Program-made: the position numbers and the translations under genes
Origin: Corynebacterium freiburgense
GTDB lineage: Bacteria; Actinomycetota; Actinomycetes; Mycobacteriales; Mycobacteriaceae
DNA: 64,000 bases
Direction of reading: 5' to 3'
Assembly (NCBI RefSeq): GCF_030408815.1
Contig: NZ_CP047355.1
Location: forward strand, 1,612,001-1,676,000
Shown: positions 6,345 through 47,600 of the stretch, piece after piece
Position numbering within the stretch: the stretch's first letter is position 1
Layout: every line of letters begins with the position of its first letter
The notes under the pieces: model-generated
What the model was told of the DNA's origin: nothing
Seen by the model: only the letters and a program-made list of their open reading frames with translations
Databases searched by the model: none

Positions 6345-6850
6345 GAACATGAGCTCTACGTATTGGCACAGGCTTGGTCTGGTTTGGTCTGGTTTGGTCT
6401 GGTTTTCGGGGTTGACTTGGATTGGGTCGTGGTGTGGTTGTAGTGTTTTACAGATTCCGCTGGGCCGGCCTGGGAAAGGCACTGGTTGGGGGTTGCTTGG
6501 GGGTTGCTTGGGCGCCGGTTCGGGGTTGCTTGGGCGGGTTGTCACAGATTCCATTTTTTCGGCTGTTTTTATGGAATTTGTGACACGATAGGTAGGGATC
6601 CTGTCACAGATTCCATTTTTTTCGTTGTTTTTATGGAATCTGTGACAAACCCCAGGTCAACGGTTGTATGCAACATGGGCTGTTGTCACAAATCCCACTG
6701 GAACGGGCTTGTTTTATGGAATCTGTGACACTCCAGATGAAAACATCACTAGTTCAATAGGGCAAGCCTATCAAACACCAGGTAAACCGGCTCAAACGCC
6801 CCGAAAACCAGCCGACACGCCCGAAAATCAGGCAAATCTGACAAATCCCC
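6345..6850. repeat. Multi-hairpin interspersed repeat, copy A
   Basis: Core 6539-6776. Hairpin 1: TGTCACAGATTCCAT at 6540-6554 pairs with 6571-6585. Hairpin 2: 6602-6616 pairs with 6633-6647, a perfect 15-base-pair stem. Hairpin 3: 6684-6697 pairs imperfectly with 6717-6730. A fourth small stem lies in AATAGGGCAAGCCTAT near 6755-6772. Left of the core is G/T-rich sequence including GGTTTGGTCT repeated about three times (6371-6405). Right of it are C/A-rich units of about 21 bases. CTGGTTTTCGGGG at 6399-6411 is matched by its exact inverse complement at 6799-6811. It lies between convergent genes. Copies B and C share the core almost base for base. Confidence 0.85.
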
Positions 6851-7140
6851 ACAGCCAATGAGGCAGATTTTACATTGCCCACACTACGTGAACTTATTTC
6901 TCCATTTCACAGGACCAGACCCACTGGACACAAGACAAAAGTGCCTTTTCATCAAGCGAAAGCCCTTGATTTTGTATCACCATACCGAAATACCATGTCG
7001 TTCCGTAGACTGCACTACACGAAAAGTAAGTGCAGCGGATTCATCTACGGCAGTAGTCTAGATAATTCCAGCCGCTTAGTTGATTTCGGTTCTTTTTTGT
7101 ATCCGCAAAACCATATGCAGCTTTTGGCTCAAAATATAAT
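6851..7140. other. Intergenic sequence between repeat copy A and the nusB terminator
   Basis: About 290 bases of mixed composition. Open frames exist, but none shows a recognisable domain, a good ribosome binding site or a corynebacterial codon pattern, and both flanking genes end here. No RNA gene was recognised. Confidence 0.5.
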
Positions 7141-7190
7141 CTCACCCATATACGCTGGTAGCTTGATTTTTTTTCGCGTATATGGGTGTT
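7141..7190 (-). terminator. Probable terminator downstream of nusB
   Basis: CACCCATATACGC (7143-7155) is the inverse complement of GCGTATATGGGTG (7176-7188), a perfect 13-base-pair stem. It begins about 20 bases past the nusB stop on the minus strand. The tail on that strand is AT-rich rather than a clean T run, so termination strength is uncertain. Confidence 0.6.
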
Positions 7191-7209
7191 AGGTTTCAAG
7201 ATTCAGTAA

Positions 7210-8130
7210 TTAGCTAGGAGATTTTTCTTCTGCATTAGCCACATCACTGACCACAGATGAATCTGCTTCCTTTTCCTGTGGTTGCACGTCGCTAGGTTCG
7301 ACAGCCTCTGAAGAATTCGGAATGCTAGATTCGGAAACCTCTGCTTTCGGCATACTTTGTTCGGAGTTTTCGTCCTGAGCCGAAATCTCCACAGGTTGAG
7401 AAGTCTCCACAGGTTGAGGCACCTCTAATTGTTGAGGTTGTTCTTCTGCATTTGGCCCAATGCCTGTATCTTCAAAGTTTTCGGAAGAAAAATCGGATAC
7501 TTTTTCTGCAGCAGCTCCATCATCGGCAGCAATATCATCCAGCGATTCAGCTTCCGCAAATTCAGCCTCAAGCTCACCGCCTGTTAGTTCGAACTCGCCG
7601 TCATCGGGAGTGTTTTCTTCAACGGTTTCTGGAGAGTCTGCTGCAGCGATTTCTGCTTGCGCTTCAGCTCGGAGCTCGTCGATATTTTTCGCTACTGCGT
7701 CGAGGACAGCATTGATATAGGGGGCTGCGAAGTCGGTTGAGTATTGGCTTCCGAGTTCTACACCTTCTACAACAGCGGTTTTTGTTGGTACTTCTGGGTT
7801 AAACAGGAGCTCCCAAACAGCGATGCGAAGGATTGCGCGGTCGACTGCTGGGATACGTTCCAGTTCCCAGTTTTTCGCTAGGTAGCGAGCGATTGTATCG
7901 TCGACCCGGTCGAGCTCTACCGCGACCCCCCCTACAATTTGTTGGGTATATGGGGTCACTGGCGGGATATCGAATTCTGGTTGCTGCGAAAGTTCGATAC
8001 GGTCTTCGACGATCGCTACAGGGTCAACATCTCGAAACTCAGCTTCAAAAAGGATATCGACGGCCCGCGCACGGGCGCGGTACCGGCTACCTCGGCGTTT
8101 TTCGGGGTCCTTTCGGGGCGTCGTACTCAC
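7210..8130 (-). CDS. nusB: Transcription antitermination factor NusB with a long acidic C-terminal extension
   Basis: NusB binds boxA RNA with NusE (S10) to stop premature termination, mainly in rRNA operons. Residues 1-155 are a complete NusB fold: basic N-terminus with [20 protein letters not shown], then [37 protein letters not shown] and [21 protein letters not shown] helices. Residues 156-306 are an acidic, Glu/Ser/Pro/Gln-rich, apparently disordered tail with short repeats such as QPVETS and QPVEIS. Bacterial NusB is normally about 130-190 residues, so the tail roughly doubles it. The start is GTG 8130, ten bases after efp. Its base use is repetitive in the tail. Confidence 0.93.
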
Positions 8131-8140
8131 TCGCTTCTAC

Positions 8141-8704
8141 CTAGTTGTTGACGCGGGAAATGTACGAACCGTCGCGAGTGTCTACTTTGAGAACATTGCC
8201 GGTTTCAATAAAGAGTGGGACTTGAATCTCGGCACCGGTTTCCAGAGTTGCGGGTTTGGTTCCACCCGTGGAACGGTCTCCTTGGAGGCCTGGATCCGTG
8301 TGCTCAACCTTAAGCTCTACCGAAACAGGCAACTCTGCAAACAAAGGTTCGCCATCATGGAAGGAAACCTGAACAACGGTATTTTCCAGCAAAAACTTAG
8401 CCCCTTCACCCATAAGGTGTGGTGCTAGTTCAATTTGGTCGTAGGTTTTTGCATCCATAAGCACATAGCTGGTGCCGTCATTGTAAAGGTAGGTCATATC
8501 ACGGCGGTCAACCGTTGCTGTTTCTACCTTGACGCCAGCATTGAAGGTCTTGTCTACAACCTTGCCGGAGACGACGTCCTTAAGCTTGGTACGTACGAAC
8601 GCTGGGCCTTTACCTGGCTTGACATGCTGGAACTCTATGATTTGCTGAAGCTTGCCCTCCATTTTGAGCACAAGGCCATTTTTAAAATCAGCGGTGGTTG
8701 CCAC
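8141..8704 (-). CDS. efp: Translation elongation factor P
   Basis: Binds stalled ribosomes beside the P site and restores peptide bond formation at proline runs. It has 187 residues, the standard three beta-barrel length. The tip loop is [12 protein letters not shown] with Lys32; neither an EarP-type Arg nor an EpmA-type setting is apparent in the loop. It ends in the conserved [13 protein letters not shown]. The start is GTG at 8704. It sits between pepQ and nusB in one run, an arrangement typical of Corynebacterium. Confidence 0.97.
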
Positions 8705-8751
8705 TGGGTTATTCTCCCTACATAAAGGTTGTGCAATTTAGCTTTACAATC

Positions 8752-9846
8752 CTACACCACAAGCAGGTCTTTACTCACTTTGGTGATAATCTCAGGAGCA
8801 CCAGAAGTGATAATCAGGGTATCTTCAATCCGGACGCCTCCTTTACCTGGCACATAGATCCCCGGTTCGATAGTTAGTGTCATTCCGGGTTTCAGTTCAC
8901 CTTTGCCGGTTTTCGCAGCCCACGGCGCTTCATGGACGTCTAATCCAATCCCATGCCCTGTGGAATGCACAAAGTATTCTCCATAACCAGCTGTTTCAAT
9001 AATGTCCCGGCAAGCTCTATCGATATCAACGAGCGATGTTCCTGGTGTTGCTGCAGCTACACCAGCTAGTTGGGCTTCTAAAACAATATTGTAAATTTCC
9101 GCGGTGAAATCAGTGGTGTGGTCCATAATGACTGTTCGGGTCATATCGGAGTTAAATCCACGGTCATGGGCACCAAAGTCTAACGTTACTAAATCCCCTG
9201 GAACAAGCTTTCGATCTCCCGCGCCGTGGTGAGGTTTTGCCGAGTTCGAACCGGAAGCAACAATTGTGTCAAAGCTAGGCCGTTCTGCACCAAGTTTGCG
9301 CATACGATATTCCAAGTCTGCGGCGATTTCTCGCTCGGTACGGCCGACCGCGATTTCACCGGCGGCAAGAAGATCTTGGAATGCAGTTGAAGCAAGTTCT
9401 GCTACTTCACGCAGCCGCTGCAATTCCACATTGTCTTTGGTGAGGCGAATGTTTTCTACTACATCAGTAATTGGCACAAGGGTCACATCCGGACCGCAAG
9501 CTTCTTCAAGTTCGCGAAGTTCCGATACAGAAACATATGCTGCTTCAAATCCAACTCTGCGCGGACCAATAACTTTTTGTAGAAGTGCGGCAGCGCTCGG
9601 GCGCGCGATCACTGCTTGGATATCTGGGACTTCTTCGGCGATTTGTGTGGTATACCGCCCATCGGTGGCAATTGCAGCGCTGAGGTCTTTATTGATAAGC
9701 AGCGCTCCATTGGAACCCGAGAAACCGGAGAGATATCGAACATGTGTCAGATGAGTAATAAGGATGGAATCAACGCGTTGTGCAGCAAGTGCCGCCGCAA
9801 GGGTACGGCGGCGGGTGGCAAATCTCGTATCGGCTAAAAGGGTCAT
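8752..9846 (-). CDS. pepQ: M24-family aminopeptidase P / Xaa-Pro dipeptidase
   Basis: 364 residues. An N-terminal creatinase-like domain (1-130) is followed by the pita-bread metallopeptidase fold. Metal ligands are in place: Asp in TLDFGAHDRGFNSDMTRTV, His in GHGIGLDVHE, Glu in LTIEPGIYV, and Glu in GVRIEDTL. It removes or splits residues next to proline in the cytoplasm. Start ATG 9846. It lies between aroQ and efp. Whether it is an aminopeptidase or a dipeptidase cannot be told from sequence; pepQ is the name usually given at this corynebacterial locus. Confidence 0.9.
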   Translation of the reverse strand: MTLLADTRFATRRRTLAAALAAQRVDSILITHLTHVRYLSGFSGSNGALLINKDLSAAIATDGRYTTQIAEEVPDIQAVIARPSAAALLQKVIGPRRVGFEAAYVSVSELRELEEACGPDVTLVPITDVVENIRLTKDNVELQRLREVAELASTAFQDLLAAGEIAVGRTEREIAADLEYRMRKLGAERPSFDTIVASGSNSAKPHHGAGDRKLVPGDLVTLDFGAHDRGFNSDMTRTVIMDHTTDFTAEIYNIVLEAQLAGVAAATPGTSLVDIDRACRDIIETAGYGEYFVHSTGHGIGLDVHEAPWAAKTGKGELKPGMTLTIEPGIYVPGKGGVRIEDTLIITSGAPEIITKVSKDLLVV

Positions 9847-9859
9847 AAATTTACCCTAC

Positions 9860-10285
9860 CTAGGAATTTGCGCAAATGTACTCTAACGCCAAAAGATATC
9901 CGTGGGTACCAAGACCAGCAATTACGCCTCGGGCAATCGGAGAAATATAGCTATGTTGGCGGAATGGCTCCCGAGCATGAACATTTGAGATATGCACTTC
10001 AACAACGCAATCAATTTCAGCCAATGCATCGCGCAATGCTACGGAAGTGTGGGTAAAGCCTCCGGGATTAATAACTACGGGCCAGTTATTGTCTGCGGCT
10101 TCATGAACCCATTCAATGAGCTGGCCCTCATAATTAGATTGCAAACAGGTTACTTGTACACCTAGTGCTTTGGCTTTATCCTCGATCTGTTGCTCGAGAT
10201 CAGCGAGTGTTGTGGTCCCATAGATTTCCGGTTGGCGTTTTCCCAAACGGTCGAGATTGGGGCCATTTAATACGAAAATATGCAT
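9860..10285 (-). CDS. aroQ: Type II 3-dehydroquinate dehydratase
   Basis: Dehydrates 3-dehydroquinate to 3-dehydroshikimate, third step of the shikimate pathway. 141 residues, as expected for the dodecameric type II enzyme. The start contains [20 protein letters not shown] with Tyr22 as the usual base; [10 protein letters not shown] and [18 protein letters not shown] carry the other active-site residues, including His98. Its ATG shares one base with the aroB stop (TAATG). Called aroD in older corynebacterial literature. Confidence 0.96.
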
Positions 10286-11352
10286 TATTGGCTAATCCGT
10301 TCATAGGCGGCTTGAAGTAATTCGATTCTTGGTCCTTCGAGTCGTGCGGTTTCTCCGGCGCCAGTTAAAACCACAAAACGGAGTTTTCCATCGCGGTTTT
10401 TCTTATCTCGGCCCATGCCCGTAAATAGTTCATCAAAGCAACCTGGTACGTAGGTAGTTGGCAACCCAATGGATTCCAGAATGCTTCTATGGCGCTCAAC
10501 TAAGTGGGCGTCGATAAGCCCATGAAGTTCTGCTAATTCGGCGATAAACATCATGCCAACAGCGACTGCATTACCGTGCTTCCATTTGAAGTTTTCGCGG
10601 AGTTCGACAGCGTGGCCAAATGTATGCCCGTAATTAAGTATTTCTCTTAAACCTGACTCTTTCAGGTCATTGGAAACTACCCTTGCTTTTACCGCAACTG
10701 AACGCCCAATAAGTTCTGGTAGATAGCCTTCTACTTGTAGGCAAGCAGCGGAGTCGGCTTCATATAATCGGAGAATTTCTTCGTCTGCAATAAAACCAGT
10801 TTTAATTATTTCTGCGGAGCCCGCGATTAACTCATCTACGGGCAATGTCCGCAAATAATCTAAATCAATACATACTGCAGCGGGTTCATGGAAAGCACCT
10901 ACAAGATTTTTACCAGCACTTGTATTGATTCCCGTTTTACCACCAACAGCGGCATCTACCATGGCCAATAATGTGGTTGGCACCTGGATTACATCGATAC
11001 CACGCATCCAGCATGCGGCAACAAATCCGGCGAGATCAGTAACTGCGCCCCCGCCCAGGCCAATAATTGTGTCACGGCGGCCCAGACCAAAGCTACCGCA
11101 GAGATCCCAGAGTCCTTCTGCAACCGAAAGTGTTTTCCCGGCTTCAGCGTCTGGCACTTCTGCAAGATGCACCCGAATGCCACGGCTTTGAATAACATTG
11201 GCCAAGGTTTGTGCCTGTGCTGCAAGAGGATACTGGTGAATCAGCAGAACTTTGGCACAATCTTTGCGGATTGATTCCAGAATATGCTCCTGCAATCCGT
11301 GTCCGATCGTTACTTGGTACGGGGCCGCGCCGGTAACCGGGATAACGTTCAT
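10285..11352 (-). CDS. aroB: 3-dehydroquinate synthase
   Basis: Converts DAHP to 3-dehydroquinate, using NAD and a divalent metal. 355 residues. The NAD-binding region [21 protein letters not shown], the active-site [11 protein letters not shown] and the metal ligands in [11 protein letters not shown] are all seen. It lies three bases after aroK and overlaps aroQ by one base, in the middle of the shikimate run. Confidence 0.97.
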
Positions 11353-11355
11353 TAA

Positions 11356-11886
11356 TTAGACGTCCTTTTCGTGGGTGTCGCTATGTGTTTCTAGATAGTT
11401 CAATACATCTGCCACTACTTGTTGCGGGGTCCGGCCGTCCGTTCGGGCCCGATACCCTGCGACTTCGCGATACAGCGGCGTCCGTTCGGTAAGCAATTGT
11501 TGGTACCGTTCTTTTGGATCGGCGGCCGCAAGGACAGGACGAGAGGTATCACTTATAGTGCGGCGAACTCCTTCTTCTAGGGATACATCAACCCAAACCA
11601 CCGGGTGGTTCGCAAGCAGATTCCTATTTGATTCTGTGACCACCGCACCCCCGCCCAGGCTGACAACACCGGAAGTTTCCAATGCCTCAGCAACTTTTAT
11701 TGCTTCCAGCTCACGGAACGCTTCTTCGCCCAAATCGGCATATACCTCTCCGCATGGACGGCCTTGTTCAGCTTCAATAAGCACATCTGAATCCACCAAA
11801 CTCGTGTTCAAAGCATGGGCAAGGCGCCGGCCGATTGTGGATTTACCTGCCCCTGGGGGGCCTACTAGCACTACGCGAGGCGACAT
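11356..11886 (-). CDS. aroK: Shikimate kinase
   Basis: Phosphorylates shikimate at O3 with ATP. 176 residues with Walker A GPPGAGKSTIG at 9-19, the shikimate-binding DSDVLIEAEQGR and the central GGGAVVTESNR. A longer in-frame start at 11925 lies inside aroC. ATG 11886 is preferred: it forms TAATG with the aroC stop, has GGAG seven bases upstream, and gives the usual start for the family. Confidence 0.96.
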   Translation of the reverse strand: MSPRVVLVGPPGAGKSTIGRRLAHALNTSLVDSDVLIEAEQGRPCGEVYADLGEEAFRELEAIKVAEALETSGVVSLGGGAVVTESNRNLLANHPVVWVDVSLEEGVRRTISDTSRPVLAAADPKERYQQLLTERTPLYREVAGYRARTDGRTPQQVVADVLNYLETHSDTHEKDV

Positions 11887-13091
11887 TAAAACTCCAAACG
11901 TTGTTGAACCCGATTCAGATAGCATTCAATATTGCATTGGGTTTCCGTCAAACTATCCCCCCCAAATTTAGCTAAAACTGCCCGAGCCAGCACCAAAGCG
12001 ACCATTGCTTCTGCAACTACGCCCGCCGCAGGGACCGCACAAACATCCGAACGTTGATGGATTGCTGAAGCCGGTTCACCAGAAGCCATATCAATAGTTT
12101 TTAATGCACGAGGCACAGTTGAAATAGGCTTCATTGCAGCGCGTAGCACCAGACTTTCCCCATTGGTCATACCGCCTTCCAGGCCGCCAGCGCGGTTTGT
12201 TAACCTTCGTACACCGCCATCTTCTGCCCGTACCATTTCGTCATGAGCTTGGGATCCACGGCGTCGAGCTTCTTCGAAACCATCGCCGATTTCCACGCCT
12301 TTAATTGCTTGGATTCCCATTAATGCTGCTGCTAATTGCGCATCAAGACGATCTTCACCTGAAACAAATGATCCAAGACCAATCGGGAGACCATGCACAA
12401 CAACTTCAATAATGCCACCAAGGGTGTCTCCGGCTTTTTTCGCAGCTTCAATTTCCGCAATCATGGAAGCTTCCGCAGCTGAACCGAATGCCCGCACTGG
12501 GGAGGCGTCGATAGCTTCCAAATCATTAAAGGTTGGCAGCTCTCCGGTATACATCTCCGAGGCACCAATTGAAATTACATGCGAAATAACCTCTACCCCC
12601 AGCGCTTCCCGTAAGAAATTGCGCGCTAATGTTGCCGCCGCCGTACGAGCGGCAGTTTCGCGAGCGGAAGCACGTTCTAATACTGGACGAGCTTCCGCAA
12701 AATCATATTTCAGCATGCCAGCAAAATCAGCATGCCCAGGACGTGGGCGAGTGAGTTTTGCGCCTCGCCCTGAGGCAAATGCAGCGGCAATATCAGGGTC
12801 TTCCAGATCCACTGGATCTGGATTCATTAATGTAGTCCATTTTGGCCATTCCGTATTGCCAATCATAATTGCGACTGGTCCACCCATGGTTTGGCCGTGG
12901 CGAACCCCACCAAGCACAGTGACTTCATCGGCTTCAAATTTCATACGTGCACCGCGCCCGTACCCAAGCCTCCTGCGGGCAAGTTGGGCGGAAATATCTG
13001 CACGCGTGAGCGGCACCCCTGCAGGCATGTGCTCAACCATTGCGATAAGTGCCTGACCGTGAGATTCACCTGCTGTTGTCCATCGAAGCAT
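11886..13091 (-). CDS. aroC: Chorismate synthase
   Basis: Converts 5-enolpyruvylshikimate-3-phosphate to chorismate with reduced FMN, closing the pathway to aromatic amino acids. 401 residues. The family signatures are visible: [18 protein letters not shown] at the N-terminus, [19 protein letters not shown] in the middle, and [19 protein letters not shown] near the end. It is the first gene of the aroC-aroK-aroB-aroQ-pepQ-efp-nusB series. A small prepilin-peptidase-like gene lies upstream. Confidence 0.97.
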
Positions 13092-13148
13092 GGTGAGTAT
13101 TGTGTCACGAACAAGCCTTGCAATAAAACACGACCCCCTAAACCACCA

Positions 13149-13523
13149 CTACCAAAGACACACAAACACTGTGGCCGCCAGCATGCCTGGCCCATGTGCA
13201 ACCACTCGTTGATGGGCACAGACCCCAATTATCACTGTAAGTATCGACGCCCCGACCACTGCGCCACACCACCCAAGTGCGCCTTGCGCCAACGCCACTG
13301 TGCCCAAGCTAGCAGCTAATTTACAATCCCCACCACCAAAACCTGGCAATATTAAATACAGCCCAGCCCAAAACAATCCACCGAAAATCCAAGTTGGATC
13401 TATACTCCACGCCCAATACCAACACACACCAATCGCTGGAACCGTAAGCGCATCCGGAAGCCTATAGAAGCAGGTATCAAACCCCGAAACAATAACCGCC
13501 CAAAGAAAGAAAACCCCCGACAC
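13149..13523 (-). CDS. Short A24-family prepilin peptidase-like membrane protein
   Basis: 124 residues, mostly hydrophobic with about four membrane segments. Both aspartates of the A24 (TadV/PilD C-terminal) family are in place: FDTCFYRLPDALT (Asp16 and Asp24 region) and GFGGGDCKLA (Asp66). It lacks the N-terminal methyltransferase half of PilD, as is normal for the short TadV-like class that cleaves Flp-type prepilins. GTG 13523 with AGGA upstream is the only start after an in-frame stop. A gene of this kind, called comC in C. glutamicum, sits between aroE and aroC. No pilin gene lies in the window. Confidence 0.82.
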   Translation of the reverse strand: MSGVFFLWAVIVSGFDTCFYRLPDALTVPAIGVCWYWAWSIDPTWIFGGLFWAGLYLILPGFGGGDCKLAASLGTVALAQGALGWCGAVVGASILTVIIGVCAHQRVVAHGPGMLAATVFVCLW

Positions 13524-13634
13524 TATTCCTCGCTTTCCGCACCAAACTACTCCCCTTTTGGTTGTAGCCTAGCCGCAGGATACGCGTATATGCCAGAGGT
13601 TTTCTTTTATCGAATTAGCTTTGCCAGGTATTGG

Positions 13635-16097: not shown

Positions 16098-16106
16098 AGG
16101 CGCAGG

Positions 16107-18776: not shown

Positions 18777-18848
18777 GGCAGTAATTCCTCGCTTTATGTG
18801 AAAAAACAGTGTCCGCGCAACACTTTACCTTGGGAGTCGTATGACCTG

Positions 18849-33571: not shown

Positions 33572-33639
33572 CTTGATTTTTCTTTGAAACGCGGCTACCT
33601 TGAAGCACAGCTCGATAAACTCAAAAGAAAGGCTTGTTC

Positions 33640-33903: not shown

Positions 33904-33917
33904 GATTCACTAGCGCC

Positions 33918-33955
33918 AACCACCCGCACCCCTATAGCAAGCGGGTGGTTTTTTG
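33918..33955 (+). terminator. Rho-independent terminator after the small secreted protein gene
   Basis: AACCACCCGC (33918-33927) and GCGGGTGGTT (33941-33950) form a perfect 10-base-pair stem followed by TTTT, starting 15 bases after the stop. Confidence 0.88.
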
Positions 33956-34335
33956 CTAGCTCCCCCAAGTTAGGGGAAGCAGATTTAAAGCTTGCACAAA
34001 ATACAATTCTGGCATTTAGCAAATGAGCTACATAATGATTACCTGCGTGCGAGATTATCGCTATAGCTACATTTCTTTTACAATGCACTACTGAATAGTA
34101 TTTCCAGTGCGGGAAAACAATACATATACCTCAATGAAATTTTGTTGAGAAGTCCCGCACATTAGAAAATAGCGGCGAACTAGCCCCCAAATTTAGTGGC
34201 GCATAATGGGTGGGTGGCAGGAAACATGCCTAACAAACTGCGTTAAACCGATCCCTGACGCGAAAATACCTTTGCATATTGGGGTGGATTCTGAAGCGCT
34301 CCCCCATCTGCCAGCTCTTTAATTGACTGACAGAA
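33956..34335. other. Gene-free stretch before repeat copy B
   Basis: About 380 AT-rich bases between convergent genes. No coding frame with a plausible start or domain, and no RNA gene, was recognised. Confidence 0.5.
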
Positions 34336-34339
34336 ATGG

Positions 34340-34800
34340 GTTTTAGCATTCAATGTGACTGGCGTGGTTTGTGGGTTTGTAGGACTTGTGGCTTGGTTTA
34401 TGGCCGGCGGTTTGGTTGTGTACGTCTGGTTACCTGGGATTTGATTGGGTTTGGCCGATCTTTTCGGGTGCTGGTTGGGCGCTGGCTAGACGCGTTGTCA
34501 CAGATTCCATTTTTTCGGCGGATTTTATGGAATCTGCGACACGATAGGTAGGGAACCTGTCACGAATTCCATTTTTTTCACTGTTTTAATGGAATCTGCG
34601 ACACACCCCAGGTCAACGATTGTGCGCAACATGGGTTGCTGTCACAAATTCCATTTTTTCAGGCGATTTTATGGAATCTGCGACACTCGACATAAAAACA
34701 TCACCAGTTTGATAGGGTGGGCCTATCAAACCGCAGGAAAAGCGGTGCACTGCCTCAAAAATCAGCCTATCTGCACTAAAATCAGGCAGATTTGATGGCA
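34340..34800. repeat. Multi-hairpin interspersed repeat, copy B
   Basis: Core 34495-34731. Hairpin 1 pairs 34496-34510 with 34527-34541, hairpin 2 pairs 34558-34572 with 34589-34603, hairpin 3 pairs 34640-34654 with 34671-34685. A fourth stem is TTTGATAGG with CCTATCAAA around 34708-34730. The left flank is G/T-rich and shares GTTTGGTTGTGTACGTCTGG (34409-34428) with copy C allowing a few changes. The right flank ends AAAATCAGGCAGAT, as in the other copies. It lies between the convergent ends of the small secreted protein gene and rel. Confidence 0.85.
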
Positions 34801-34861
34801 ACCATAAATCCCAAGCACTATCAAACGAAGAACAATCCAACCTGCGGGGGCAAGAGTTCAA

Positions 34862-37147: not shown

Positions 37148-37167
37148 CGCGCACTAGCTCCCTTAAA

Positions 37168-37713: not shown

Positions 37714-37715
37714 TG

Positions 37716-39317: not shown

Positions 39318-39406
39318 CGTCAACCTCCACAGATTAGAAGTGATCTGGAAATTATATCCTCTCACTCCATTGTTCTTTTCGACGCCCCTGCTTCCCAAGC
39401 GCACCA

Positions 39407-40804
39407 TCATTGCGGCAACTTCGCTCGCTTGAAAAATTCTTTCTTTCGATCACTCCATTGCTGAATTGATGGGCTCGATAGCGCAAGCATCGACAAAATA
39501 TTAAGAGGCAGCGTTTCACGGACTAAAATTGCCCCAATTCCAAATTCACCTGAATTATATAACGCTTCCGCCGCTAATACATCAAATGAAATAAGGACCA
39601 ACAGCCAGAGCCTCGCAATCGTTTTCCCATTCCACGTAAACCACGCGACGATACCCAATACAATTGTTGGCAAAATAACCGTGGATACCGTTACAACTTC
39701 CCGCAGCGGAACATCGGAAGGTAGTTCGAATGGCGAGTAGACCATATTTGTATACGCGCCAATAATCGCAAATATTATCGTGAATATCGTACCCGCAATA
39801 AGCGCGAGCGGACGCTGCATTTGTGGAATATAACCTTCCACAACAGCATCATTATCGGGTGCAGCATATCCCCCGGGGTCTGCTTGGGCATAGCCTTGCG
39901 CTGCGCGCTCCACCGCAAATGGGATTTCCAAATCCTTAGAAACCGGCACATAATCCAAACACACAATTGGAAGATTGCCATCCGTAGTTACCAAATCACC
40001 GCCACCATTTCGGGAGTGATAACCAGTGGAGAAATTTTCGATAACCTCCACCCTTGCCTCTGAATTTGAAACCAAAAGCGAATGAACAATATAGTCACGT
40101 TCAATATCAATATTTGCGTCGATTTTGTGGGTGATTTGAAAAGTAAATAACGATAATCCCACCGAGCGGTCGTACGTCCCCGCGGCCACCCATTGAACAC
40201 GCCGACCACCCGGCAATAGCCAATGGTCAGGGCATCGCCATAATCGCACGTGGTGTCGTTGAGCAGCGTTTCCCTCCACTTCCTGCTGATACGCCAGGCA
40301 TTGTCTACGCCCGAACACGAACAGTGGACTCACTGGCGCTTCAGGATAGCTTCGTTTTAATACTGAACTTAGGATAATTCCCCACGAACTTTTAAATGTC
40401 ACATCATCTGCGAGTGTCCACCCCGCTAGAACCATCGCTTGATGTATTTCTTTGGCACTACCGTGAAACGCCAGGTTGATCGGGTCCCCTAAAAGTCCGT
40501 CTGAAGTGCGGGCCCTGCCAATAAAATAGCCTGGAACATATATTCGCGTAAAAATTCGGTGGATTCTTGGGAGCACAAGATACGCCGCAATTGCCCAGAA
40601 CGGAATAAAAAATAATTGATACGGCCAGTCAATCACCAATGATCGACTCAGCAATAGTAATGCTAGCCACCCAGCGAGTAGTGTCGCCAACACGAAAAAT
40701 AGATTATCCACAATCTCGGCCGGACTTAATCGACGAATCTGCGCATCACGGACCTTCGATGGGACATGCTCATACTTTGGGGTTCCATGAAAAAACTTCG
40801 CCAT
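39407..40804 (-). CDS. Membrane protein with LssY C-terminal domain
   Basis: 465 residues. Two membrane segments near residues 33-52 and 60-80, an extracellular-or-cytoplasmic LssY_C-like domain (GDPINLAFHGSAKEIHQAMVLAGW, then RHHVRLWRCPD and VQWVAAGTYDRSVG), and three or four further membrane segments at the C-terminus. LssY_C domains are found beside phosphatase-type membrane proteins; function unknown. It lies between the surface-protein genes and dciAE. Confidence 0.8.
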   Translation of the reverse strand: MAKFFHGTPKYEHVPSKVRDAQIRRLSPAEIVDNLFFVLATLLAGWLALLLLSRSLVIDWPYQLFFIPFWAIAAYLVLPRIHRIFTRIYVPGYFIGRARTSDGLLGDPINLAFHGSAKEIHQAMVLAGWTLADDVTFKSSWGIILSSVLKRSYPEAPVSPLFVFGRRQCLAYQQEVEGNAAQRHHVRLWRCPDHWLLPGGRRVQWVAAGTYDRSVGLSLFTFQITHKIDANIDIERDYIVHSLLVSNSEARVEVIENFSTGYHSRNGGGDLVTTDGNLPIVCLDYVPVSKDLEIPFAVERAAQGYAQADPGGYAAPDNDAVVEGYIPQMQRPLALIAGTIFTIIFAIIGAYTNMVYSPFELPSDVPLREVVTVSTVILPTIVLGIVAWFTWNGKTIARLWLLVLISFDVLAAEALYNSGEFGIGAILVRETLPLNILSMLALSSPSIQQWSDRKKEFFKRAKLPQ

Positions 40805-40877
40805 AGCAAAATTGTAGCGAGTGCTTTACCGCCGAGAACCGGCCAAAAATACAGCAAACAAGCTAGCCAAACACAGC

Positions 40878-41513
40878 TTACTCAGTTGTTGCTTCTGAGG
40901 ATTGAGTGTTTTCTTGGCCTGTACCCAAAATCTTCTGTACGAGTTCTTTAATGATCTCAACACCACGCTCAGGTCGCGTCAAGAGTTCTTGAATCACTGA
41001 AGGGTTTTTAGCATCTGCACGAGTCAGCGTCATAACAAATGAACCTTTACCCACCTGCCCCTGTAGATTGTACGTAGTCATTGCGATTTCGTACTCACCT
41101 TCAGGACTATCGCTCGGTGTGCCGGTTATCTCACTGGTTAGGGGGTGGAATGCAAGCCCCGCCGGAAGCCCACTCACCACGGCAACGTAGGTATCAGCTG
41201 GAGAGTCAATCTGATACCTAAATGGCTTTCCAATCGTCACATGCATATCCGGCACATGCGGCACCGCAGCCTGATTCCCCTGCTGCTTCGGCGTTTCACT
41301 TGGGGTCGCTTGTGTTTTCTGGGCCGGACTCGGTTCAGCCGCAGGCGGTAATGGCTCAGCAGGCGATGGGGTCGAACTTATTGCTGGTTCCGATACCGGT
41401 TCCTGGATTCCAATAATTGACACATCCGCCAATGGATGAGCACCAGTTGGAGGCGCCAAAATAACCGTTAGGCTAGCGGCAGTAGCTCCCGCTAAAACTC
41501 GGAAAGATCTCAT
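40878..41513 (-). CDS. Secreted protein with putative Ig-like (He_PIG) module
   Basis: 211 residues. Signal peptide 1-25 (VLAGATAASLTVILAPPTGA), a Pro/Ser/Glu-rich linker (36-85), then one module with the He_PIG signature GLPAGLAFHPLTSEITGTPS and a helical C-terminus (IIKELVQKILG). No anchor motif. The module matches the one in the neighbouring LANTG protein (GLPAGLSYDSSTGLISGTA), so the two genes are related in part. Probably a secreted envelope-associated protein; ligand unknown. Confidence 0.82.
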   Translation of the reverse strand: MRSFRVLAGATAASLTVILAPPTGAHPLADVSIIGIQEPVSEPAISSTPSPAEPLPPAAEPSPAQKTQATPSETPKQQGNQAAVPHVPDMHVTIGKPFRYQIDSPADTYVAVVSGLPAGLAFHPLTSEITGTPSDSPEGEYEIAMTTYNLQGQVGKGSFVMTLTRADAKNPSVIQELLTRPERGVEIIKELVQKILGTGQENTQSSEATTE

Positions 41514-41884
41514 GGCGGAGGTCCTCCTAGGTGGACTTCTTTTAGGTGGTGGACGTGTAAATTCTTATTCTCAAAATTTTCCTAGCTGCGCCACCATTAT
41601 ATTCCCTTAAAGAAAATAATGAGTACTGCAACACTTTCGATACTTCCGCATAAAAACCTGTTACGCAAGTGATAAAAGTGGTAACTGATATCACTTGGCA
41701 CTATAACATCACAAAGGCCCCCTATTGGGGGGACAATGTAACATCATGGTATTAAATTACGGTCGAAACCGCTAAGTGAAAACTTTGCGAACCTCATCTA
41801 GTTTCTACCATATAAAAAGCGCCACTGCCTGCAGGAATATTGCCCACAAACAATGACGCGTTTTATATTGTTGATCGCTGTGCC
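41514..41884. other. Intergenic region with a CCCCC/GGGGG palindrome
   Basis: 370 bases between two same-strand surface-protein genes, so it should hold the promoter of the smaller one. CCCCCTATTGGGGGG at 41718-41732 is a palindrome about 205 bases before that start. The rest is AT-rich with no gene seen. Confidence 0.45.
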
Positions 41885-43189
41885 TTATCCGCGGCGTCGT
41901 TGAGCGAGTAGCAGCGACCCTCCAGCAGCGAAAGCTAACGCAGACAACAAGAATGCGTTGATCGCTTCCGCAGGTCCGGTATTTGCAAGTTGCTGTTGTG
42001 GCGCGGCCTGAGCAGCTGGTTGTGTTTTATGCTCAGGTGCACCCCCACCCATTCCGTCGTTCTTCGGCACACCTTTAGTCTGCGCAGGCTGGTCACCGCC
42101 ACCTACACCTTGAGGACCATTATCATTTTCCGCGCCTGCAGGTGCCCCCGGAGCTGGTGCGGCATCTTCGGGCCGATAATCAGAGCTGCCCATTGACAGC
42201 GCACCAAGCACACCAGCACTCAACGCAACTGCTGCAACACTGGACAACAATCCCCCAAAGGCAGCTGAGCTAGCTGTGGAACTTCCACCCGCCGACATGG
42301 AACCAGAAGCACTGCCACTACCTGAAGAAAGTGCACCAGCACTTTCACTGGACATTGCCCCACCCGAGCCCAAAGCTTCTCCGGAGCCCATTGCCCCGCC
42401 GGAGCCCAAGGCACCATCTGAACCCATCGCGCCACTTGAACCTGCAACATCACTGGAAAGTACGCTGCTTGTCAGCCCAGGATCGACCATTGAGCCTGGC
42501 GCCAGTGACATGGTGAAGCTACCTTGGCTTGAGCCACCATCGCTACCAATAACACCAACTTCACTTATTCGGGCTGGCCCTGGTAGTGCAGTACCTGAAA
42601 TCAAGCCGGTTGAGGAATCGTAGGAAAGACCCGCTGGCAAACCGCTCAGTAGCGGTGCTGAAGAGCCAGATGATAGTGGAATCTGGTAGCTAAATGGAAC
42701 CCCTACTGGTACCTCCATATTTGGAATGAACGGTAATACGGACGAGCCGGGAGCAACGCTTCCAACTCCAGCCTCAGCTGACTCGCCGGCCGACCCCAGG
42801 GGGCCAGAGCCTACTGGGCCAGACCCCAAAGCGGCATCGGAGCCGTACCCTGACCCTGGCGCTGAACCCAAAGCGGCATCGGAACCATATTCACTTCCCG
42901 AGCTCGAGCCAGCACCTGGAACTACTGCCGGAGCAGATGGGGCTGGTGCGCTAGGCCCACCGGATCCGGTTGAAGAACCCAGTGCTGGAACCTTTGGAAT
43001 GGCGTCATCGAGGCGGATCAATTCACTTGAGAGTTGAACACCACTGGTAAGGCCTCGAAGCTGACGTTCTACTTCACTACCAGCATTTCCGTTTTGGCAT
43101 TCCGCTTCACACGCAAACGCTGGTGCCGGCATCATGGTGGCCGAAAGCCCCGTAACGACTGCACCAACGAGTAAACGAGAACGTTTCAT
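41885..43189 (-). CDS. LANTG-anchored surface protein with He_PIG module and Gly/Ser-rich repeats
   Basis: 434 residues. Signal peptide ends near PAFA; the early mature part has a Cys pair (CEAECQN). A Gly/Ser stretch repeats YGSDAALGS twice, then a He_PIG module (GLPAGLSYDSSTGLISGTA), a second repeat block of Gly-Ala-Met/Leu-Gly-Ser units (about 255-310), a hydrophobic patch, a Pro/Gln linker and the sorting signal LANTG (401-405) with a hydrophobic stretch and RRRG tail. LAXTG signals are typical of class E sortases, which high-GC Gram-positives use. No sortase gene is in the window. Confidence 0.88.
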   Translation of the reverse strand: MKRSRLLVGAVVTGLSATMMPAPAFACEAECQNGNAGSEVERQLRGLTSGVQLSSELIRLDDAIPKVPALGSSTGSGGPSAPAPSAPAVVPGAGSSSGSEYGSDAALGSAPGSGYGSDAALGSGPVGSGPLGSAGESAEAGVGSVAPGSSVLPFIPNMEVPVGVPFSYQIPLSSGSSAPLLSGLPAGLSYDSSTGLISGTALPGPARISEVGVIGSDGGSSQGSFTMSLAPGSMVDPGLTSSVLSSDVAGSSGAMGSDGALGSGGAMGSGEALGSGGAMSSESAGALSSGSGSASGSMSAGGSSTASSAAFGGLLSSVAAVALSAGVLGALSMGSSDYRPEDAAPAPGAPAGAENDNGPQGVGGGDQPAQTKGVPKNDGMGGGAPEHKTQPAAQAAPQQQLANTGPAEAINAFLLSALAFAAGGSLLLAQRRRG

Positions 43190-43524
43190 ATTTTCCTGAA
43201 CTCCTTGGGTGATTCAAAAATGGTCAAACATGAAGGAAACTTGAGATAAGTCTGCGAAGCACGGAAAAGGTTTTAGCAACTGAAATTACACCTAGTCCTA
43301 AACCGCACTAATTCCGATGCTTCACTAAAGTTCATTCGCACACAAGGTATATCTACAAATAATGTGACTAATAGGACATAATTACATTAATAGTACCCCT
43401 AGTATGGGGGTGGTAATTGCCACCACTATTAGGGGCATCGCTCAGAATTATCTAAGAATCCGCTGGTACCACCCATCAAGGTTTGGCAGCAAAGAATCTA
43501 ATTGTCCCCTACCTATCAAATAAG
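43190..43524. other. Upstream region of the LANTG protein gene with nested palindromes
   Basis: 335 bases, promoter region of the minus-strand surface gene. ACCCCTAGTATGGGGGT (43395-43411) is a near palindrome; CCCCTAGTA can alternatively pair with TATTAGGGG (43427-43435) around an inner GGTGG/CCACC stem. This lies about 205 bases before the start, the same distance as the similar palindrome of the neighbouring gene. No coding frame recognised. Confidence 0.45.
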
Positions 43525-43526
43525 AA

Positions 43527-43567
43527 AATCGTCACGTTTGTGTAATACAAACGTGACGATTTATTTA
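43527..43567 (-). terminator. Terminator of the secD-secF run
   Basis: ATCGTCACGTTTGT (43529-43542) pairs perfectly with ACAAACGTGACGAT (43547-43560) around a four-base loop. The tail toward the surface gene on the minus strand is TTTTCTTATTT. It starts 14 bases after the secF stop. Confidence 0.9.
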
Positions 43568-43580
43568 TCGAATTGAATTC

Positions 43581-44735
43581 CTATTCGGCTCCAGGCCTCC
43601 AACTCTTACCAGAAGAAGTGTTTGAATTATTTGTAGTTTCCGGCCCTGCAGGAGTAGTAACAATTCGTTTTCCATCTGCATTCCGCGTAAATTCTGAGGT
43701 GGAAACCAATTCAGCTTGTCGCTCTTCTTCCTCTGGTGCTGCGCCATTCCGTACGGCGTCAACACGTGCATTGTGGCGCTTGATCTTCTTTTGTCGGTTC
43801 TTAAGGCTCACTAAGAACGGTGTAGCCAAGAATACCGAAGAGAACGTACCCTCAATAACACCTATTAGCTGTACAAGCGCAAGGTCTTTTAGCGTTCCAA
43901 CGCCCATAAGCCATACGGCCACAACCATCAAAGCCAGAATCGGCAGCGCTGAAATTACGGTGGTTGAAATCGAACGCATAACAGTCTGGTTAATAGCTAA
44001 GTTTGATAGCTCACCATAGGTGCGGCGAGTGGTTGATTCGAAGCCCGCAGTGTTTTCCTTGACCTTGTCAAACACCACAACAGTGTCATACAAGGAGAAT
44101 GCCAGCACTGTGAGCAAACCGATAATGGTTGCTGGAGTAACTTCAAATCCGATTAGCGCATAGACACCAGCAATGACAATGGCGTCTACTCCAAGTGCGG
44201 AAAGCGCCGATATAGCCATGTCTCGTTCAAAACGAAGCGCGATGTATACAAAGATCAATGCAAGGAACAAACCAAGGGAAATCAGCATCCAGTAGGTAAT
44301 TGTGGAACCCCATGACTCGGACACCGTAGAGTCACCAATAGCCTCGGCCGATGGGCTTCCTGAGGTGCCTTTTGGTTGGAATTCGGTAAATAACGCGTCT
44401 CGGGCTGAGGTGATTTGTTCATCACTAAGGCGCTCTGAGTTGATTTCCAAAATGCGAGAATCGCCCGCACCAACAATTTGAACCGTTACTGGGTCTACCC
44501 CCGTAGCGTCGGTAAATACTTTTTCTACTTGGGTCGTTTCCAGATTGTCTGCCGGCATATTCATTTTCGTGCCGCCTTGAAAATCAATGCCGAGTGTAAA
44601 ACCTCGGATAGCAATAGCAAGGAAACAGACCACCAGGACAATTCCCGTGATTGTGTACCAGAGACGTCTGCGACCAACGAAGTCGACGCCACCTTCCCCG
44701 GTGTAGAGGCGTTTGATGGTTCCAGTGGAGCTCAT
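43581..44735 (-). CDS. secF: Protein translocase subunit SecF
   Basis: 384 residues, six membrane segments plus the periplasmic-side P1-like region. The signature FTLGIDFQGGTKMNM follows the first segment; the C-terminal half has the RND-type AFSLYDTVVVFDKVKEN motif. It assists SecYEG late in export using the proton gradient. ATG directly follows the secD stop (TAA then ATG). A charged, Ser-rich C-terminal tail of about 60 residues is a local feature. Confidence 0.97.
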   Translation of the reverse strand: MSSTGTIKRLYTGEGGVDFVGRRRLWYTITGIVLVVCFLAIAIRGFTLGIDFQGGTKMNMPADNLETTQVEKVFTDATGVDPVTVQIVGAGDSRILEINSERLSDEQITSARDALFTEFQPKGTSGSPSAEAIGDSTVSESWGSTITYWMLISLGLFLALIFVYIALRFERDMAISALSALGVDAIVIAGVYALIGFEVTPATIIGLLTVLAFSLYDTVVVFDKVKENTAGFESTTRRTYGELSNLAINQTVMRSISTTVISALPILALMVVAVWLMGVGTLKDLALVQLIGVIEGTFSSVFLATPFLVSLKNRQKKIKRHNARVDAVRNGAAPEEEERQAELVSTSEFTRNADGKRIVTTPAGPETTNNSNTSSGKSWRPGAE

Positions 44736-46595
44736 TTACTTCTCCTCTTCATTGTTGGGGGCTGGGGTGCTGTACGCGAGTTGTTCTGCGGTATGCGGGG
44801 CGTCGATACGCTCATTGCGTTCTGCTTGACGTCGTTCTGCCACTTTCATCACGCTTGCCAAACCGTTGACACCCGGGCGGGCAAACCACGGAATGCGCGA
44901 GGCCAAAATAACCAAAGGCGCGGTGACTAGGAAGGTCACCAGGAGGTCGAATATTGTGGTGAGCCCAAGCGTAAACGCAAACCCCTTGACATCACCAACC
45001 GCAAGGATATAGAGCACTACAGCTGCAATAAGGGAAACGAAGTTACCAGAGATAATGGTTTGCTTCGCGCGAACCCAAGCACGTGGTACAGCCGAGCGGA
45101 ATGTGCGGCCTTCACGTATTTCATCTTTAATACGTTCGTAGAACACCACAAAGGAGTCTGCGGTAGTACCAATACCAATAATCAAACCGGCAACGCCAGC
45201 CAGATCAAGCGAATATCCAATCCAGCGCCCTAGTAGGACAAGTGAGCCATACACTAATGCCCCCGAAGCAAAGAGCGAGAATATGGCAAGGAATCCGAAA
45301 ACCCGGTAGTAGGCAAGCGCGAAGAGTGCTACCAAAATAAGGCCGACCAAACCCGCAATTAAACCTGCTTTCAACGAAGCAATACCAAGCGATGCAGGAA
45401 CAGTGGTAGCGGTACCACCACGTTCGCCATTTTCACCGGCAAAACTAAGCGGCAGCGCACCATAGCGCAAATTATTTGCAAGTTCAGTAGCTTCTTGTTG
45501 CGTAAATGCACCAGTGATTGAAGTTCCAGATCCTGGAGGCGTCGGGGATTCGATTCGAGGCGCGGAAAGCACTTGGGAGTCAAGAGTAATAGCAACCTGG
45601 CGTTGCAAATATTCTTCGGTGAGTTGGTACCAGGTGGATCCGCCTTGCTCTGAGCCTTCAGCTTTAAAAGCGAAGTTGATTTCCATTACACCGGTTTCGG
45701 GGTTAATGCCACCGGTAATTGGTCGGTTGGTGTCAATCTCATTGCCAGTAAGGCGCTTACCATTGGCTTCATCAGTTTCCCCAACAAGCAATGGGGACGC
45801 ACCTAGAATGTATTTTTGATCTGTTCCAACTTCACAAGCAATCAGCGGTTTGCTTGGTTCATCGGTTCCGGCAATTGGGTCAAGTTCATTTCCACATTGC
45901 AGCAACGTGAGTGCGGCAAATTGTTTTGTGGGATCCTCGGATTGCCGGTCATTACGTAATACTTCAGTTGTTTTTTGACGGTGTTCCGTGGCAGCTTTCG
46001 GGTTTTTCGGTTCCTCAGCTGGTTTTTTGGTTACTTTTGGTGCTTCGGCATTTGCATCTGCATTTTCTCCAGCTGCTGCCCCCGCTGCTTTAAGGCCTTC
46101 GTCAAGTTGTTTGAGTGCTTCATTAGCTTTTTCTGGGGTAATCACACCACGCTCAACCCAACGATCCGCCATTTCCACGGTAGTTTGAAGCAAGACTGCA
46201 GGATCAGGTTGCTGAGGTTCCAGCACTGGCCTAAATAACAATTGCGAGGTTTGACCCAGGGCTCGTGCTTGGGAAGTATCTTCCCCCGGAACGGTGATCA
46301 CCAGTGTGGTGCCATCAGTAATCACACTGGCACCACTAACCCCCATGCCATTGACACGGTTTTCCAGGATTTGACGTGCTTGGGATAGCTGCTCCGCGGT
46401 GGGGTCTTCACCTTGCGGAACGAGGGTCACACGGGTTCCACCTTGCAAATCAATGCCCAGTTTTGGGTTTGCGCTGCGGTCGCCGGTGAAAAAGATAATT
46501 ACGTAGATGGTCACTAGGATGGCCACAAACGCCGCTATGGCAAGTTTGGGCCACCTGGCGAGTCCGACGCGGGTGCGCCCGGATGACGATGCCAC
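44736..46595 (-). CDS. secD: Protein translocase subunit SecD
   Basis: 619 residues: first membrane segment (LAIAAFVAILVTIYVIIFF), KLGIDLQGGTRVTL, the extracytoplasmic P1 region, then five segments with GIGTTADSFVVFYERIKDE. Inside P1, about residues 170-265 form a low-complexity Ala/Lys/Glu insertion followed by a Cys pair (LLQCGNEL and LIACEVG) likely bridged outside the cell. GTG start at 46595. Forms a unit with SecF and YajC. Confidence 0.97.
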   Translation of the reverse strand: MASSSGRTRVGLARWPKLAIAAFVAILVTIYVIIFFTGDRSANPKLGIDLQGGTRVTLVPQGEDPTAEQLSQARQILENRVNGMGVSGASVITDGTTLVITVPGEDTSQARALGQTSQLLFRPVLEPQQPDPAVLLQTTVEMADRWVERGVITPEKANEALKQLDEGLKAAGAAAGENADANAEAPKVTKKPAEEPKNPKAATEHRQKTTEVLRNDRQSEDPTKQFAALTLLQCGNELDPIAGTDEPSKPLIACEVGTDQKYILGASPLLVGETDEANGKRLTGNEIDTNRPITGGINPETGVMEINFAFKAEGSEQGGSTWYQLTEEYLQRQVAITLDSQVLSAPRIESPTPPGSGTSITGAFTQQEATELANNLRYGALPLSFAGENGERGGTATTVPASLGIASLKAGLIAGLVGLILVALFALAYYRVFGFLAIFSLFASGALVYGSLVLLGRWIGYSLDLAGVAGLIIGIGTTADSFVVFYERIKDEIREGRTFRSAVPRAWVRAKQTIISGNFVSLIAAVVLYILAVGDVKGFAFTLGLTTIFDLLVTFLVTAPLVILASRIPWFARPGVNGLASVMKVAERRQAERNERIDAPHTAEQLAYSTPAPNNEEEK

Positions 46596-46731
46596 TGGGT
46601 TGTTCTCCTCGAGGATCGATGTACAGATTGATCAGTCCACACTCCCGTGCGGGATGTGCCCAACCTAAAAAAGACTTATTCAAATCTAGTCCACTGGACA
46701 TCGTACGTCATCGTTCTGGCCCTGTTTATTC

Positions 46732-47007
46732 TTAAGGCTTATCGACGTCCCCCTCACGGCGACGCACAATAGCCGCCAGGTCCCACGTGGTCACCACATC
46801 TGGTGCAAGCTCTAAATCGACCTCTTGTTCACGCACCGTAACGACGACTCCATGAACCCCCGCAGCCGTAACTACCCGATCACCTGTTTGAACACTTGCT
46901 TGTAGCGCTCGGCGCTCAGCAAGCAGACGCTGCTGACGACGCAATTGCAAAAGCGAAGGCACTAAAAAGACAACAAGCAATAACGCAAGCAGTAAATATT
47001 GTGACAT
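46732..47007 (-). CDS. yajC: YajC, accessory subunit of the Sec complex
   Basis: 91 residues: one N-terminal membrane segment (LLLALLLVVFLVPSLL), basic stretch QLRRQQRLLAERRALQASVQ, then the family core VQTGDRVVTAAGVHGVV and a charged end. Sits upstream of secD on the same strand, separated by 136 bases. Expected order is ruvB-yajC-secD-secF; repeat copy C now fills the gap to ruvB. Confidence 0.93.
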   Translation of the reverse strand: MSQYLLLALLLVVFLVPSLLQLRRQQRLLAERRALQASVQTGDRVVTAAGVHGVVVTVREQEVDLELAPDVVTTWDLAAIVRRREGDVDKP

Positions 47008-47074
47008 TGCCTTAGTGTGCCATATTTAGGGATGCTCCCCCGTTTGTTGGACTACATCGTTCTGAGTTTTATCG

Positions 47075-47600
47075 CCGGTAGTTTGGTTACGCACGTCTGG
47101 TGAACTGGAATTTGGTTGGGCTGCATATGGGTCTGGTTGGGGCCTGCTTGGAAGCTGCATGTTCTTTTCGGGCGCTGGGTGGTCTTTTTGGGCGCTGGTT
47201 GGTCCTTCCTGGAGGTCTGGTTGGGTGCGTTGTCACAGATTCCATTTTTTCGGCGGATTTTATGGAATTTGTGACACGATAGGTAGGGAACCTGTCACAG
47301 ATTCCATTTTTTTCGCTGTTTTTATGGAATCTGCGACAAACCCCAGGTCAACGATTGTGCGCAATGTTGGTTGCTGTCACAAATTCCATTTTTTCAGGCG
47401 ATTTTATGGAATCTGCGACAGTCAGCATGAAAACATCACTAGTTTGATAGGGCGCGCCTATTAAACACCCGGGAAAGCGGCTCGAAGGCTCGGGAAACCA
47501 GCCAACTCACCCCGGAAACCAGCTCAAATACTCGGAAAGCCCTGGATTTTCAGCCCACCTGCCCCGAAAATCAGGCAGATTTCACATCACCCACAACCCA
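47075..47600. repeat. Multi-hairpin interspersed repeat, copy C
   Basis: Core 47230-47466. Hairpin 1 pairs 47231-47245 with 47262-47276, hairpin 2 pairs 47293-47307 with 47324-47338, hairpin 3 pairs 47375-47389 with 47406-47420. A fourth small stem surrounds GATAGGGCGCGCCTATT near 47446-47462. The G/T-rich left flank has repeats of GGGCGCTGG(T/G)TGG. The right flank holds at least three units of about 21 bases with a shared GGAAACCAGC-type centre, ending AAAATCAGGCAGAT. It separates ruvB (3' end) from yajC (start). The remaining bases 47601-47807 are C/A-rich and show no gene. Confidence 0.85.

Follow-up and report, generated by a model that had tools for sequence, protein, structure and literature searches.

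A dispersed MITE-like repeat family with a conserved palindromic array in the chromosome of Corynebacterium freiburgense

Three copies of a repetitive intergenic element are present in a 64,000-nucleotide stretch of the Corynebacterium freiburgense chromosome (assembly GCF_030408815.1, contig NZ_CP047355.1, positions 1,612,001 to 1,676,000 of the forward strand; hereafter the window), and belong to a family with at least 75 members in this genome. The family is best explained, with a probability that we put at about one half, as a repeat resembling a miniature inverted-repeat transposable element (MITE) that carries a double-stranded array bound by a protein and is homogenised by gene conversion. 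According to this explanation, a non-autonomous element of ~620-960 bp would transpose between genes and make a 4-bp target duplication, its conserved cargo being a putative array of inverted 15-bp half-sites (TGTCRC-NNN-TTCCAT type). The centres of the half-sites would be separated by ~31 bp, or three helical turns, both within a palindrome and over the short spacer, with 51 bp separating those on either side of the long spacer; a putative protein multimer may bind the array along approximately a single face of the double helix, and frequent short-tract gene conversion would keep the copies alike within the genome. Neither a description of the family nor any of four motifs of the element was found in the open-access papers searched.

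The core of the element comprises, in order, a 46-bp palindrome (H1), a 16-bp spacer, a second 46-bp palindrome (H2), a 36-bp spacer, a third palindrome of 46-47 bp (H3) and a small fourth stem. A 22-nt pattern for the short spacer, allowed up to three mismatches, was matched at 69 places in the 2.948 Mb chromosome (66 exactly, two with one mismatch and one with two), while the reversed pattern gave no match in the same genome; the search of the complete genome, proposed in the preliminary description made from the window alone, hence yields a family far above chance. A similarity search at the DNA level, in which 40 of the 93 first-look candidates were scored, recovered at least 40 full cores with 91-100% identity, all of them among the 69 pattern places, and additionally four short self matches on the reverse strand. 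Three palindromes are retained in 64 of the 69 copies and two in four, which look like products of recombination between like hairpins, and one copy (L055) is decayed. Searches with the outer modules added six further deletion forms carrying one or two palindromes, giving a total of at least 75 copies (69 + 6), which is a lower bound. Thus, the forecast of dozens of copies per genome is borne out, and the three cores in the window represent a dispersed family occupying ~2% of the chromosome, as estimated from 75 copies and the lengths of the two-ended ones.

The copies are not parts of long segmental duplications, as the sharing of 11-mers among the fetched copies falls near background past ~275 bp to the left and ~425 bp to the right of the spacer. 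The flanks, which are G/T-rich on the left and C/A-rich on the right in the three window copies, have this composition across the family (G+T 0.72 and C+A 0.68 over 200 bp in 68 copies). No overlap of the core with a gene predicted by a home-made gene caller was observed for 68 of the 69 copies, and L055 overlaps one by 7 bp; among the 62 cores for which both neighbouring genes were called, the genes are convergent in 20, tandem in 30 and divergent in 12.

A comparison with other genomes provides a second, diverged version of the family. A DNA search of 242 Corynebacterium genomes including C. freiburgense, with up to three candidates scored per genome, gave matches in the source genome and in one metagenome-assembled genome (MAG), Corynebacterium sp. 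S17M_Sa_7, alone; the exact hairpin pattern occurs 187 times on the forward and 182 times on the reverse strand in C. freiburgense, 71 times on each in the MAG and not at all in the other 240 genomes. A scan of one genome per species (84,980 species, a set in which the source genome may not be included) likewise returned only this MAG, with 33 stretches. There was no match in 60 relatives for which every candidate was scored, nor in collections of viral contigs, plasmids and phages. The MAG family has diverged in sequence from that of C. freiburgense and has the unit [palindrome]36[palindrome]15[palindrome]36[palindrome], which is itself near-palindromic, the anchor with the 15-bp spacer being found on both strands (66 anchors), and some units are in tandem with a 190-bp linker. 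The C. freiburgense core retains three of the four MAG-type palindromes, and a decayed fourth palindrome with its 36-bp spacer is recognisable by eye in the left flank of some copies, for example L066. Paired four-palindrome units in tandem, joined by the 190-bp linker, were observed in the MAG stretches L102, L103, L109 and L110, and the linkers of L103 and L109 contain, as judged by eye, a GGCGTCG...CGACGCC-like hairpin.

The lengths of the parts are maintained in both genomes. The long spacer is 36 bp in all 64 full C. freiburgense copies, and in the MAG it is 36 bp in 46 cases and 49 bp in one. All 64 full copies have a short spacer of 16 bp, a count that is biased because they were picked with a gap-free pattern containing that spacer; the 40 similarity-found cores agree with this length, yet all of them lie among the pattern places. 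In the MAG, where the stretches were fetched by the hairpin and not by the spacer, all 29 short spacers measure 15 bp. For the inner segment that separates the two arms of a hairpin, a range of 3-75 was permitted; 337 of 377 readings in C. freiburgense and 197 of 227 in the MAG gave 16 bp, the readings being taken from both strands, so that a hairpin may count twice. The remaining segments are 14-18 bp long except in ten hairpins, where they measure 25-28 bp (five in C. freiburgense), 27 bp (four in the MAG) and 38 bp (one in the MAG), and lengths of 19-24 and 29-37 are unoccupied in both genomes. As judged by eye, the extra length of the long segments comes from tandem duplication of a ~11-bp inner block, and the half-site centres are accordingly ~31, 42 or 53 bp apart, near three, four and five helical turns. 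On average, the ten insertions deviate from whole turns by 0.75 bp; the corresponding value for random lengths of 3-30 is 2.8 bp, and none of 100000 simulations gave a value as low. Conservation beyond the demands of pairing, suggested earlier from the three window copies, holds, and that first reading did not include the constancy of the spacers between species or the steps of helical turns. Selection rather than mutation may lie behind the 11-bp steps.

The boundaries of the element are inverted-repeat-like. The left end, TGAACTGCTCCCCGTTTGTTGGACT, was recognised in 34 of the 69 copies above the 95% level of shuffled scores and in 28 above the 99% level; for the right end, AGTCTAACTTTCGGGGGCAAGTTCA, 45 of the 69 copies exceeded the 95% level. 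The profiles were trained on the very 69 copies that were scored; the left ends were found with fixed seeds and the right ends come from the first, drifting-profile search. The ends are degenerate or absent in the remaining copies, which include the first copy in the window. Nineteen copies have both ends and measure 621-961 bp, and three of them are bordered by exact duplications of 4 bp, as against a mean of 0.52 under permutation (p 0.004); one of the three is the third window copy (TTTA), the first and second window copies being outside the 19. The strongest evidence that a defined unit has inserted comes from two loci compared between the genomes. At copy L007, the MAG shares both neighbouring genes but lacks an element, and cutting 748 bp together with one GTTT from the C. 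freiburgense sequence restores the empty site, this cut having the joint top score among 2601 cut pairs, with six shifted cuts tied. At the RNase P locus (RF00010 in both genomes), C. freiburgense carries the element on one side and the MAG on the other, each being absent in the partner. The inverted-repeat-like ends and the empty site of L007 with its 4-bp duplication indicate that the repeat behaves as a non-autonomous MITE-like element, as had been proposed among other possibilities in the preliminary description. A long foldback between the left and right flanks was also considered and set aside: the duplex energy of a copy's own flanks equals that with the flanks of other copies (p 0.48) and is only slightly better than that of shuffled sequences (p 0.014), which does not speak for a structure specific to each copy.

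The copies are mosaics. Over 58 variable sites in 64 copies, linkage (r2) is 0.26 for sites up to 5 bp apart, drops to 0.04 at distances of 31-60 bp and remains at 0.04-0.08 beyond, and all four allele combinations are present in 67%-97% of the site pairs, which points to frequent short-tract exchange between copies; repeated mutation may add to the pattern. When the 33 MAG stretches were compared with the flanks of the 69 copies, four gene gaps were found to hold an element in both species, and the scores of these shared-gap pairs (111, 58, 139 and 56) are on the whole not above those of mismatched pairs, which fits either homogenisation within each genome or independent insertion. These observations would also be expected of a purely selfish MITE that is bound by no protein, its core being alike through recent spread and gene conversion and its 11-bp steps being due to a slippage bias. 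The persistence of the one- and two-hairpin deletion forms, the placement of 68 of the 69 cores off predicted genes and the mixed orientation of the neighbouring genes agree with this explanation as well. What it does not anticipate is that the long spacer of 36 bp, the short spacer of 15 or 16 bp and the hairpin length are kept in the MAG while the flanks and the sequence have diverged, and that the long spacer is invariant in C. freiburgense while the flanks vary by hundreds of bases; a wholly selfish origin is thus considered unlikely.

In the stems, 94.9% of the cells are paired in an alignment of 59 sequences (25 of 63 usable C. freiburgense rows and 34 of 42 MAG rows). The elements could instead be structured RNAs, as the preliminary description had allowed, or single-strand hairpins formed by the minus strand, with stems that would be kept since the transcript or folded strand is recognised or processed. 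The departures from Watson-Crick pairing in 68 of the 69 copies are nearly all transitions and are asymmetric, with 318 cells of A.C on the plus strand (equivalent to G.U on the minus strand), 48 of G.U on the plus strand and three others, although the cells count related copies and not independent events, the ratio by stem position being 17 to 6; the minus strand is also the more stably folded one in 57 of 68 copies. Both the asymmetry and the stability speak for an RNA. Against it, the covariation proposed earlier as a check did not exceed the shuffled alignments by any measure (score 0.072 versus 0.083 in the 59 sequences from two species), Rfam has no match on the element, the MAG arms bear unpaired changes at positions 8-9, and the fixed spacers and helical-turn steps are unexpected for RNA loops. 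The spacing of half-sites in helical turns and the lack of covariation above chance speak for protein binding to a double-stranded array more than for a structured RNA. The RNA or single-strand explanation, to which the strand bias of the wobble pairs still lends some weight, is considered unlikely and is, together with the purely selfish MITE, a main rival of the array.

A further observation bears on the RNA explanation. A covariance model applied to the 242 genomes, with 14 candidates scored per listed genome and stricter filters, added two weak matches, both in the genome G023 (E 0.007 and 0.008, where about two are expected by chance). At positions 1440-1547 of the stretch L172, this genome has hairpins of 46 nt and 47 nt separated by a 15-nt gap, with arms TGTCCCAGGATCCACCA that pair with different letters and show compensating changes, and the pair is perhaps a distant relative; if so, it would favour an RNA. 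Searched over 20 stretches measuring 20 kb each, of which two had been chosen for their matches, an arm pattern gave 14 matches, as compared with two for the control; five lie at the two known places and none of the other nine is accompanied by such a hairpin. G023 is not counted as a member of the family.

Several observations weigh against the proposed protein-bound, MITE-like repeat. The 4-bp duplication is missing from 16 of the 19 two-ended copies, in which duplications of two and three bases are at the level of permutations (p 0.53 and 0.25), and the first search for ends, with 44 copies, gave no 4-bp duplication, its left profile having drifted to an interior G/T repeat. A search of the genome for the Y1_Tnp and rve families revealed no transposase with ends like those of the element. 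The hairpin array alone is visibly common to the MAG, and because the ends and flanks are not, the array may predate the MITE; the MAG long spacer, in turn, has exceptions, one of 49 bp and one of 41 bp beside a decayed hairpin. Being tandem duplications, the 11-nt steps could stem from a slippage bias instead of selection, the wobble bias and minus-strand stability hint at an RNA or single-strand role, and no protein is known to bind the array. What the sequences show directly is the number of copies, the motifs at the ends, the clean empty site of L007 with its duplication, the mosaic structure, the length of the long spacer and the helical-turn steps in the inner segment; the protein, its binding, a role of selection in the steps and any benefit to the host are inferred.

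A more specific form of the proposal, in which the array would be a docking grid for a nucleoid-organising protein, seeded by transposition and kept uniform via gene conversion, is viewed as quite doubtful. A distribution of the kind expected for organisation of the chromosome was sought and set aside: no clear bias relative to the replication strand was seen (16 plus and 16 minus copies in one half, 23 and 14 in the other, with the origin and terminus assumed at 0 and mid-chromosome), and of the two largest gaps between copies, 229 kb (1.25-1.48 Mb) and 199 kb (2.94-0.19 Mb), the larger is not unusual in simulation (p 0.18). A gap at the terminus is not claimed because the positions of the origin and terminus are assumed and unmapped.

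The enzymes that could mobilise the element were also surveyed. The left-end motif has eight matches in the genome with up to three mismatches, of which six adjoin known cores and two are at hairpin-deleted copies. The rve search of the C. freiburgense genome identified two genes, one in the window and a broken one at 1.78 Mb, and element-like ends were not found near either of them. A degenerate IS3-type insertion sequence with an rve domain and, as judged by eye, a disrupted first reading frame is present at 53050-54020 of the window, its ends being unlike those of the repeat. Y1_Tnp (PF01797) was absent from both C. freiburgense and the MAG, the same query being positive in five of 14 control genomes, and no reverse transcriptase was found in either genome. 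Therefore, a spread driven by a transposase associated with repetitive extragenic palindromes (REPs), known as RAYT, or one of retro type, is unsupported. The preliminary description had likened the repeat to REPs or to bacterial interspersed mosaic elements (BIMEs), and if it were such an element, moved by a RAYT-type Y1 transposase, its ordered palindromes, its short and long spacers, its intergenic placement, its mosaicism and the GTAG present in the short spacer would find an explanation. The resemblance to a BIME is in architecture, yet the Y1/RAYT enzyme is lacking in both genomes, the palindromes are 46 bp long as against the 20-40 bp given for REPs in PMC3733652, and the element has its own ends and 4-bp duplication; this origin is accordingly held to be very improbable.

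Within the window, the three cores were confirmed on the sequence at the positions and with the order of parts first reported, all on the plus strand. A fourth stem, described for each, is indeed present in all three, and it is perfectly paired in the second copy alone. Copy 1 extends approximately over 6344-6900, with a left end TGAACATGAGCTCTACG at 6344 recognised by eye alone and an unclear right end, neither end passing its threshold. It comprises H1 at 6540-6585 (46 bp), the short spacer at 6586-6601 (16 bp), H2 at 6602-6647 (46 bp), the long spacer at 6648-6683 (36 bp), H3 at 6684-6730 (47 bp) and the fourth stem at 6753-6775 (TTCAATAGG/CCTATCAAA), with two non-Watson-Crick pairs on the plus strand. 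A second module, approximately CACTGGA(C/G)ACAAGA(C/T)AAAAGTGCCTTTTCATCAA, is common to positions 6905-6955 and the right flank of copy L029, and may represent another repeat family.

Copy 2 occupies 34292-34860 between degenerate ends TGAAGCGCTCCCCC ... GGGGGCAAGAGTTCA, as judged by eye. Its parts are H1 at 34496-34541 (46 bp), the short spacer at 34542-34557 (16 bp), H2 at 34558-34603 (46 bp), the long spacer at 34604-34639 (36 bp), H3 at 34640-34685 (46 bp) and the fourth stem at 34708-34730 (TTTGATAGG/CCTATCAAA). Its neighbours are genes for a cyclophilin and a RelA/SpoT protein, with the end of the element adjoining the stop of the RelA/SpoT gene (34862).

Copy 3 spans 771 bp (47029-47799) between the inverted-repeat-like left end at 47029-47053 (GGGATGCTCCCCCGTTTGTTGGACT) and right end at 47775-47799 (AGTCTGACTTTTCGGGGCAAGTTCA), with TTTA at 47025-47028 and 47800-47803. 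It has H1 at 47231-47276 (46 bp), the short spacer CGATAGGTAGGGAACC at 47277-47292 (16 bp), H2 at 47293-47338 (46 bp), the long spacer at 47339-47374 (36 bp), H3 at 47375-47420 (46 bp) and the fourth stem at 47443-47465 (TTTGATAGG/CCTATTAAA), followed at 47573-47658 by a right module, AGGCAGATTT...AAATCTGCCT, with a C/A-rich loop. The motif at the start of this module has 39 matches in the genome with up to three mismatches, 34 of which adjoin known cores. The neighbours of copy 3 are ruvB, on whose upstream side it lies, and a small predicted gene followed by a secD-like gene.

Two explanations are usual for small bacterial repeats, namely selfish MITEs, which have conserved ends, and REP/BIME palindromes tied to RAYTs. 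In the family described here, by contrast, the centre is conserved, the ends decay, the long spacer keeps its length to the base in two species and the inner length changes in whole helical turns. Whether such repeats serve the host through protein binding is a long-open question, which this family now makes testable. Copies that make up ~2% of the chromosome and apparently exchange short tracts also provide a natural system for the study of ectopic gene conversion, and the docking-grid proposal, if true, would represent a transposon turned into a grid for chromosome architecture.

The repeat resembles the prokaryotic MITEs Correia, QMITE and Chunjie, as they are outlined in PMC10969869, in that no coding is seen, the ends are inverted-repeat-like, the target duplication is short, the dispersal is intergenic and deletion derivatives occur. 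MITEs are, however, usually shorter than 500 bp and have conserved ends, whereas the 19 two-ended copies exceed this length, the conservation is in the centre and the ends are poorly conserved; also, no related insertion sequence was found in the C. freiburgense genome among the Y1 and rve families searched. With BIMEs and REPs it shares ordered imperfect palindromes, recurrent linkers, intergenic placement and proposed protein-binding sites, as far as these are treated in PMC2817692. It differs from them in that no RAYT was found, in its longer palindromes, in an inner segment of 16 bp that changes in steps of ~11, and in its own outer ends. The GTAG/CGTC end tag of REPs and BIMEs was not seen at one end of the palindromes of the element, GTAG being within the short spacer and not at each palindrome and CGTC being seen only at some MAG arms, all as judged by eye. 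The ends may resemble those of the IS3 family (IS150 group), which are of the TGRACTG..CCCC type with duplications of 3-5 bp; the element differs in having no orfAB, and the two rve genes of the genome lack such ends nearby. Three-site recombination arrays or phased regulatory arrays, such as res sites and plasmid centromeres, likewise hold multiple inverted sites for protein binding with constant, helically phased spacing, while here 75 copies are scattered on the chromosome. The element is MITE-like in behaviour and BIME-like in appearance, and is not classed as a REP.

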